Shown in pieces: positions 53,347 to 55,626 of a DNA stretch of 64,000 nucleotides; position 1 is the first letter of the stretch; each line of letters opens with the position of its first letter. Location: the NCBI RefSeq assembly GCF_000016125.1, contig NC_009135.1, positions 496,001 through 560,000 of the forward strand. Direction: 5' to 3'. Origin of the DNA: Methanococcus maripaludis C5. GTDB taxonomy: Archaea; AGJL01; Methanococci; Methanococcales; Methanococcaceae. Both the position numbers and the translations under genes were made by a program. The notes under the pieces were generated by a model that had not been told where the DNA came from, did no database searches, and was given only the letters and a program-made list of their open reading frames with translations.

Positions 53347-54603
53347 ATGGTACTTTTAAAAAATGGAAAAATTGTATCTGACGATAATATGATGGAATCA
53401 GATATTTTAATTGAAGATGGGATAATTCAAAAAATTGAAAAAAATATTGATTATTCTGGTGAAACAATTGATTTAAAAGGAAATTATGTTTTTCCCGGGT
53501 TTATCGATTCTCACGTTCATTTTCGTTGGGGAAATCCCGAAAAAGAAGATTTTGTGTCCGGAAGCGAAGCTGCAATTGCAGGCGGGGTTGTTTATGCAAT
53601 AGATATGCCAAATAACACGCCTCCTGTGACTACAAAAGAAATATTTTACAAAAAAATGAAAGAAGGAAACGAAAAAAGCAAGATAAACTTGTATTTTGCT
53701 TACGGGGTTACTGAAAATAACTATTTAGAAAATGTCGAAGAAGCGAAATTTTATAAAATTTTTATGGTAAAATCAGTCGGCGACCTGTTTATAAGCGATT
53801 ATTCAAAATTAAGGGTAATTCTTGACCAAAATAAGATTTTTGCAATTCACGCAGAACACAAAAATATAATTTCAGAATGTTCGGAAAAATACGAATTAAA
53901 TAGTTTCGAAAATCACTGTAAAATTAGAAGTCGAGAAAGCGAGATTGAAGCAGTTAAAGAAGTTTTAAATGTTTTACAAAAAATTGATAAAGAAAGTAAA
54001 AATAAACCTCACGTTCATTTCTGCCACATTTCAGTTAAAGAAGCGCTTGAATTAATAAAAAATGCCAAAAAAACTCTTAAAAATGTAAAAGTAACTGTTG
54101 AAGTTAGTCCTCACCATTTATTTTTAAATTCAAAAATGGCTGAAGATCTGAAAGGTTGTGGAAAATTCAACCCTCCATTAAGGGAAGAATTAGACAATTT
54201 GGCATTATTAAATGGAATTATCGATGGAAATGTTGACGTTGTTGCAACTGATCACGCACCGCATTTACTTAACGAAAAATTAAATCCTGTGGAAAAATGC
54301 CCTTCAGGAATTCCCGGGATTGAAACACTTGTGCCATTGATTATGGATTTGGTAAACGAAGGAAAAATTTCAATTTTTGATGCGTACCGAGTTTTATCAA
54401 AAAATCCTTCAGAAATTTTTAAAATAAATAATAAGATTGAAATTGGAAATAGCGCAAATATGACTGTTGTCGATATGGGCAAAGAATACAAAATATCTGC
54501 CAAAGATTTTAAGTCAAAGGCTAAATTCACGCCTTTTGAAGGAAAAACTGTTAAAGGAAAGCCTGTTGCAACATTGGTTAATGGGAAGATATATATATTA
54601 TAA
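53347..54603 (+). CDS. pyrC: Dihydroorotase
   Basis: Amidohydrolase of 418 residues closing carbamoyl aspartate to dihydroorotate in pyrimidine synthesis. Metal ligands are visible: DSHVHFRWG (HxH), IHAEHK, HFCHIS and ATDHAPHL (the last Asp). [15 protein letters not shown]-like KFNPPLREE is also family-typical. ATG at 53347 is preferred over GTG at 53338, as TGTGGG then serves as ribosome site, though this is a weak decision. It begins 21 bp after the pseudouridine synthase gene, so co-transcription is likely. Its end overlaps the trp promoter. Confidence 0.93.
54588..54600 (+). promoter_or_regulatory. Probable trp operon TATA box
   Basis: AGATATATATATTA overlaps the last codons of pyrC. A start about 26 bases on (near 54620) would give a leader transcript of about 30 bases before the leader-peptide ATG. 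A second TATA-like string (ATATATAA, 54625-54632) is too close to the leader peptide unless that message is leaderless. Confidence 0.5.
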
Positions 54604-54652
54604 TCTTTCTAAAACATACTATAATATATAAAATTTAGAACGGTGGTAAAAA

Positions 54653-54748
54653 ATGACGTATCGGTTGGAACAGTCGGAAATAAATGTCGAATCATTCTGT
54701 AAATTAAGTTCATTTGAAAGTGTTGTTTTATTCCAGTGGTGGCAGTAA
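54653..54748 (+). CDS. Candidate trp leader peptide
   Basis: Short frame of 31 codons upstream of trpC. It begins MTYRLEQSEINVE and ends VVLFQWWQ-stop; the tandem Trp codons are at 54737-54742, two codons before the stop at 54746. The ribosome site GGTGGT (54642-54647) has the ideal spacing of five to six bases. Trp is the rarest residue, so two adjacent Trp codons in a 31-codon frame directly ahead of the whole tryptophan operon strongly suggests a translated sensor of Trp-tRNA supply. This is inferred from sequence; no homologue was compared. Confidence 0.7.
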   Translation: MTYRLEQSEINVESFCKLSSFESVVLFQWWQ

Positions 54749-54799
54749 TCACTGTGTAATTTGTTAGTGGACGCTATAGTCCGGTTAATTAGTATTTTT
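54734..54799 (+). promoter_or_regulatory. Candidate trp attenuator helices and T-run
   Basis: Three mutually exclusive short helices can be drawn. 1:2 pairs CAGTG 54734-54738 (overlapping the Trp codons) with CACTG 54750-54754. 2:3 pairs CACT 54750-54753 with AGTG 54766-54769, extended by wobble pairs. 3:4 pairs GGAC 54769-54772 with GTCC 54779-54782. A TTTTT run at 54795-54799 follows. The order matches regions 1-4 of a classical attenuator, but helices are only four to six pairs and region 2 lies close enough to the Trp codons to be covered by a stalled ribosome, so the exact mechanism may differ. Confidence 0.5.
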
Positions 54800-54936
54800 G
54801 CAGTTGTTATCAAGAATTTAAAGATATCAGTATAGTTAATATCAATATATCTAACAATACGGATGAATATAAAAATTCTAAGTATCGACTACACGGTTTA
54901 TCAATTTAATTAAGATTTAAATTTTAGAGGGCAATT

Positions 54937-55626
54937 ATGACCATAAATTTTAAAAAGCAGGCAAATGCCATAAAAAATTTTGACAAAAACCCAATCATTG
55001 CGGAAATCAAAGTTCATTCTCCAAAATATGGCGATTTGTTGAAAGGAAGATCTGAAATGGATATTTTAAGAATATACGAAGAAGCAGGGGCAGTTGGAAT
55101 TTCATATATTACAGATAAGCAGCATTTCAATGGAAACTTTGACGTTTTTAGAAAAATCTGTGAAAATACCGAACTTCCAGTTTTAAGAAAAGATTTTCTA
55201 ACAACAAAAGACGAAATCGAAAAAACAGCAAGTGCTGGTGGAAGCACAGTTTTGATTATTACAAGATTATTGAAAGAAAAAACAGCAGAATTTGTAGATT
55301 TTGCACTTGAATGCGGGCTCGATACTCTTGTTGAAGTTCATAACACAGAAGAAATTGAAATTGCGAAATCTACGAACACAACAATGATCGGAATAAACAA
55401 TAGGGATATTTCAAAATTGGAACTCGATGACGGAACTGTTTCATTAACTGAACAACTTGCAGATTTAATTCCAAAAGACAGAATTCTTGTCAGCGAAAGT
55501 GGAATTGCTAATTTAACTGATTTAAAAACCGCATTAAAATATGCAGATGCCGCACTAATTGGAACATCATTCATGACGGCCGAAAACCAAAAAGAGTTCG
55601 TAAAAAGTTTTGTTGGGGGAAAATAA
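54937..55626 (+). CDS. trpC: Indole-3-glycerol phosphate synthase
   Basis: TIM-barrel enzyme of 229 residues closing the indole ring in tryptophan synthesis. PIIAEIKVHSPKYGDL near residues 19-34 replaces the usual EIKxxSPSxG, VLRKDFLT is the catalytic Lys segment (near 85-92), and VSESGIANLTDL with DAALIGTSFM binds phosphate. It is a little shorter than the usual 245-260 residues, lacking part of the N-terminal helix. First structural gene of the operon; its stop overlaps the trpD start by one base or so. Confidence 0.95.
   Translation: MTINFKKQANAIKNFDKNPIIAEIKVHSPKYGDLLKGRSEMDILRIYEEAGAVGISYITDKQHFNGNFDVFRKICENTELPVLRKDFLTTKDEIEKTASAGGSTVLIITRLLKEKTAEFVDFALECGLDTLVEVHNTEEIEIAKSTNTTMIGINNRDISKLELDDGTVSLTEQLADLIPKDRILVSESGIANLTDLKTALKYADAALIGTSFMTAENQKEFVKSFVGGK

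Follow-up and report, generated by a model that had tools for sequence, protein, structure and literature searches.

How does a methanogen control tryptophan synthesis when its trp operon is preceded by a short reading frame that carries two adjacent Trp codons near its end? Textbooks describe ribosome-mediated attenuation as a mechanism of bacteria. Here, we analyze such a frame ahead of trpC in a window of 64,000 nucleotides from Methanococcus maripaludis C5 (a genome of 1.789 Mb plus an 8.3-kb second contig). We suggest that tryptophan is probably sensed by translation of this leader, a reading that is well supported by sequence and in which translation itself and the sensing of charged tRNA-Trp are inferred. 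The leader and the operon comprise the following features, with coordinates given within the window.

54642..54647, + strand: GGTGGT ribosome-binding site of the leader, 5 bases upstream of the ATG
54653..54748, + strand: leader open reading frame ending in ...VVLFQWWQ-stop; frame kept, insertions and deletions being whole codons
54737..54742, + strand: TGG TGG, the pair of adjacent Trp codons proposed as the sensor; unchanged in 7/7 congeners, with W-x-W in 4/4 genomes of other genera
54937..55626, + strand: trpC (indole-3-glycerol phosphate synthase), first gene of the operon; PF00218
55626..61075, + strand: trpD-trpE-trpG-trpF-trpB-trpA; PF00591, PF00425/PF04715, PF00117, PF00697, PF00291 and PF00290

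The leader has 31 codons, runs from ATG to TAA and encodes MTYRLEQSEINVESFCKLSSFESVVLFQWWQ. Its stop codon (54746-54748) lies 188 bases upstream of the trpC ATG at 54937. The preliminary description, which reported a 31-codon frame with a GGTGGT site and an FQWWQ end about 190 bases before trpC, is exact in each of these respects. It also reported a complete trpCDEGFBA operon, and Pfam matches back trpC, trpD, trpE, trpG, trpF and trpA; for the trpB frame, the match is to the general PALP family, which is consistent with TrpB.

Comparative evidence supports selection on the leader frame, conservation of the Trp codons, an association with Trp genes and putative hairpins. First, the leader is present before trpC in all seven genomes of the genus, with the start site, the open frame and the ending VVL[F/S]QWW[Q/H]-stop all kept. 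The ribosome site reads GGTGGT in the four nearest genomes and GGTGTT in three, and in other genera GGTG or GTG(T/G) is found at similar spacing. Three zones can be distinguished in the alignment: a conserved translation start (GGTGGTAAAAAATG or GGTGTTTAAAATG, with an in-frame GTG used in one genome); a leader middle in near-neutral drift, where pN/pS is mostly 0.6-1.2 and length shifts only by whole codons; and a nearly invariant block, GTTGTTTTATYCCAGTGGTGGCASTAATCRCTGTGTAATTTGTTAGYGRACGCYATAGT, made up of the last eight codons, the stop codon and the following 30 bases. The leader middle is open in its own frame and has stops in both other frames. As a product over the seven leaders, the chance of this openness is ~6e-9, a figure that is overstated because the leaders share ancestry. 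Judged from the alignment, the three-zone pattern is that of a leader in which both ends are important and the middle would need only to be translated.

Second, the leader is not confined to the genus. In two further genera, four genomes (G008, G009, G015 and G019) carry a leader in the equivalent position that is poorly alignable with the genus leader and ends in AWRW, AWRWW, SWRWCGFL and KWGWCF, respectively, each before the stop; the common feature across genera is the Trp codons. Within the family as a whole (22 genomes), the leader is found in 11/11 genomes with an intact trpCDEGFBA operon, its frame and ribosome site lying 113-273 bases upstream of trpC, versus 0/11 of the remaining genomes, in which no such leader was found ahead of trpC, trpE or trpB. 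The leaderless genomes have no intact operon: trpC is separated from trpE or trpB, or the contig is truncated. For the association of leader and intact operon, Fisher's p is ~3e-6 (computed with 10 leaderless genomes); phylogeny lowers the number of independent events behind this value. Because the leader occurs in exactly the genomes with an intact operon, sensing of tryptophan via ribosome stalling is probable. By a condition named in advance, a leader function would have been refuted had close relatives lost the frame or the Trp codons; this refutation failed, both being kept in 7/7 congeners and in 4/4 more distant genomes with an intact operon.

As a separate observation, the same genus may hold an intact trpCDEGFBA operon in some genomes and scattered trp genes in others, the leader being present only with the intact operon. 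Short frames with WW upstream of trpB or trpE were also considered in genomes with split trp genes and rejected, as the matches checked sit within other genes. Among ~80 trpC loci outside the family, mostly archaeal (Archaeoglobi, Methanomicrobiales and others), no convincing leader was detected, and only the known Methanothermococcus copy was found again.

Third, an RNAalifold consensus built on the seven genus sequences predicts two hairpins, which are followed by a U-tract.

54728..54759, + strand: hairpin A, TTAT..CAGTGGT-[GGCAGTA]-ATCACTG.GTAA; 11 pairs kept in 7/7, one pair varying (U-A/U-G)
54768..54783, + strand: hairpin B, TGGAC-[GCTATA]-GTCCG; five pairs, with GC/AU, GC/GU and CG/UG/UA
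54795..54799, + strand: U5 tract after hairpin B, candidate termination/aCPSF1 site; TATTTT invariant in 7/7

In hairpin A as predicted, the Trp codons lie in the 5' arm and the loop, and the stop codon spans the loop and the 3' arm. Hairpin B has both-sided changes in two pairs (GC/AU; CG/UG/UA) and 100% of cells paired, a signal that is lost when the partner is slid; 11 of 500 shuffles reach the observed score, and seven sequences are few. The TATTTT (a U4-U5 tract) lies 46-61 bases past the leader stop in all seven genomes, amid an otherwise variable stretch. Given their composition, the stability of the leader hairpins is unremarkable (z from -0.3 to -1.3). For the four genomes from other genera, folding predicts a hairpin of 7-10 bp that carries the Trp codons in its 3' arm and has U5-U6 alongside, an arrangement that in these modelled folds is closer to an intrinsic terminator.

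The 2:3/3:4 switch of bacterial attenuators was considered as well and rejected. A 2:3 helix, formed by the 3' arm of hairpin A and the 5' arm of hairpin B, is possible on paper, with a both-sided change at one pair and one broken cell. When the ribosome is modelled on either of the Trp codons or on the stop codon, 3:4 is dominant, and P23 is 0-0.04 in six genomes and 0.36 in one. Because hairpin B is dominant in folding at every modelled ribosome position, we do not claim a bacterial switch.

Altogether, we consider it likely that the leader senses charged tRNA-Trp by ribosome stalling and thereby gates early termination at a U-tract via aCPSF1/FttA. Stalling at the Trp codons is preferred because it is the only explanation we found for conserved codons within unlike peptides, for the drifting leader middle and for the exclusive association with Trp genes. 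That transcription termination is the read-out and aCPSF1/FttA its agent is inferred, and termination has not been demonstrated. According to published work, termination in M. maripaludis relies on U4-tracts and on aCPSF1, which binds them (PMC8716108), and a coupled ribosome has been proposed to exclude FttA (PMC11616081). In the model, transcription would begin a short way before the ribosome site, with translation of the leader following. With Trp-tRNA plentiful, the ribosome would read past TGG TGG, stop two codons later and depart; the hairpin that contains the Trp codons would then fold, nearby U-tract RNA would be exposed and transcription would end early, probably at U-tracts recognised by aCPSF1/FttA. 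With Trp-tRNA scarce, the ribosome would stall on the Trp codons, block hairpin A and shield or outcompete the termination signal, and trpCDEGFBA would be transcribed. The side on which the U-tract lies relative to the Trp codons differs between genera, which counts against this explanation, as do the unremarkable hairpin stability, the lack of a competing 2:3 helix and the different fold of a second copy of the leader (described below).

Trp-tRNA could instead be sensed by the leader with a post-transcriptional outcome, the stalled or departing ribosome altering trpC translation or trp mRNA stability and not termination. The lack, in the genus, of a strong bacterial-type terminator directly past the hairpins would fit such a scheme, as would the long gap of 188-273 bases between leader and trpC, which could house other RNA signals. 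However, the trpC ribosome site is distant, no leader segment was seen to pair with it on inspection of the alignment, and the gap is poorly conserved except for the hairpins and the U-tract. We regard this outcome as unlikely without setting it aside, and retain gated termination as the preferred read-out.

It is also conceivable that free tryptophan causes the nascent peptide VVL[F/S]QWW to arrest the ribosome, in a TnaC-like manner, and that charged tRNA is not sensed through the codons. TnaC is likewise a short leader with functionally important Trp, and the final residues of the leader studied here are nearly invariant within the genus. However, RNA pairing accounts for that conservation, and a change from F to S is tolerated where the RNA model has no pairing. 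Moreover, the residues flanking Trp are wholly different in other genera (NV[A/S]WRW, ILKWGWC); the peptide context, unlike that of TnaC, is not conserved between genera, and the criterion for an arrest peptide is not met. The downstream genes also differ from those of TnaC in being biosynthetic, and induction by Trp of the TnaC type fits degradation, not synthesis. Peptide arrest is thus highly improbable in our estimation, and codon-based sensing of charged tRNA-Trp remains the better account.

We give little credence to the idea that a structured RNA, either a riboswitch or a protein-binding element, regulates the operon and that the reading frame is incidental. Conservation of the 60-base block at nearly every base, synonymous positions included, and the covariation in hairpin B would be in keeping with a structured element, but the frame upstream of the block drifts and yet keeps its start, ribosome site and openness, and the Trp codons occupy a different structural place in other genera. 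In addition, an Rfam covariance-model search that covered T-box, trp riboswitch-like and other families returned only chance-level matches, far below gathering scores.

One promoter element is predicted upstream of the leader.

54590..54603, + strand: predicted TATA element TATATATATTATAA, overlapping the end of pyrC; in 5/7 genus members

The transcription start is predicted at ~54620, upstream of the leader ribosome site, by inference only and without 5'-end data. Among short open reading frames ahead of genes over the whole chromosome (n = 2456, counts that rest on crude gene calls), 11 contain WW, and WW lies within the last six residues in five. A Shine-Dalgarno match is present for 466 of the 2456, two of which contain WW, and only the trp leader has it near the C terminus. 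That the leader is a chance frame, given that WW occurs in ~0.4% of such short frames, or is left out of the mRNA by a downstream start, with which TATATAAA at 54625 is compatible in that it would place the start near the leader ATG, can for practical purposes be discounted, because the Trp pair recurs at the same place in all relatives with an intact operon, frame and ribosome site are conserved, the association with intact trp operons is perfect and TATATAAA is not conserved among congeners. The other Shine-Dalgarno-bearing short frame with WW (G000 chromosome, 418250-418450) coincides with TGATGA/CTGA-like boxes and is possibly a guide RNA of the C/D-box type.

The leader can be compared with known systems of trp control. 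In none of the 11 leader-bearing genomes do the 200 bases preceding the leader contain TGTACA, the TRP-box motif of TrpY, and the TRP-box criterion for TrpY control is not fulfilled. TrpY of Methanothermobacter also controls the trp operon of an archaeal methanogen but is a DNA-binding repressor that acts at TRP boxes (PMC6737238). The preliminary description was right to name TrpY as a studied case of archaeal trp control and slightly out of date in treating it as the only one: Tar/TK0271, an activator of operons for aromatic amino acids in Thermococcus kodakarensis, has also been described, and it too is an archaeal regulator of such operons but an activator protein and not an RNA leader (PMC6737238). 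Like E. coli trpL and other bacterial trp attenuators, the leader is short and translated-looking, has tandem Trp codons near its stop and lies directly before the trp operon, and hairpins overlap its control codons and follow them. Unlike these attenuators, it belongs to an archaeal host, its sequence is unrelated, no competitive antiterminator helix is predicted, no hairpin immediately adjoins a U-run in the studied genus and the termination machinery, as inferred, is a different one (aCPSF1/FttA and U-tracts). Membership among trp attenuators is incomplete because the 2:3/3:4 switch is not met and termination is not demonstrated. By its sequence features, the leader is one that would work like a trp attenuator, as a variant without the bacterial switch, its function being inferred.

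Our search of the open-access literature brought up no account of archaeal ribosome-mediated attenuation; subscription journals were outside the scope of this search, and priority is not assured. If confirmed, the mechanism would show that transcription and translation are functionally coupled in an archaeon amenable to genetics and would account for trp control in methanogens whose trp promoter is without TrpY boxes. It would also provide a natural reporter for ribosome control of aCPSF1/FttA termination, an open question (PMC11616081). More tentatively, and with somewhat more doubt than conviction, we suggest that archaea have an attenuation design of their own, in which a ribosome stalled on hairpin-embedded Trp codons by U-tracts blocks aCPSF1/FttA without a bacterial switch, and that this design predates the genera of the family and was re-used once for a trpBA-transporter operon.

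Other amino acid genes gave no comparable case. No such leader was found in the regions upstream of hisG and pheA in the seven genomes, and a genome-wide scan of short frames in G000 for other amino acid leaders yielded no convincing second case. A His-rich frame of 26 codons at 819980-820060 (HSKLHPYEHHW, with a ribosome site) was rejected as a his leader, since it lies 158 bases before an elongation-factor-like gene and not before a his gene.

A second copy of the trp leader is present in G004 and G005, as a 60-residue leader that ends in NAFLFQWWH-stop and lies ~500 bases ahead of a second trpB.

L247 (G005:C2) and L248 (G004:C2), reverse strand: second-copy cluster

The leader is followed by trpB2, trpA2 (divergent, trpA-like) and a gene for a Na+-dependent symporter (SNF) of PF00209, a family that we take to include tryptophan transporters. 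The cluster is perhaps an operon for Trp uptake and indole salvage. Both the Trp codons and the loop sequence GGCACTA are retained in the second copy, but at the RNA level it has diverged and is predicted to fold differently. The sequence TTTTTGCAGTTGTTA after the trp leader (54795-54810) resembles TTTTTTGCAATTATTA after the second-copy leader (L247, ~base 1225, reverse complement), and the two may represent a shared U-tract motif, to which we assign no role. The symporter gene of G006 is accompanied by neither trpB2-trpA2 nor a leader. In G009, the PF00209 symporter gene (G009:C2:855102-855442) has in-frame stops and is pseudogene-like.
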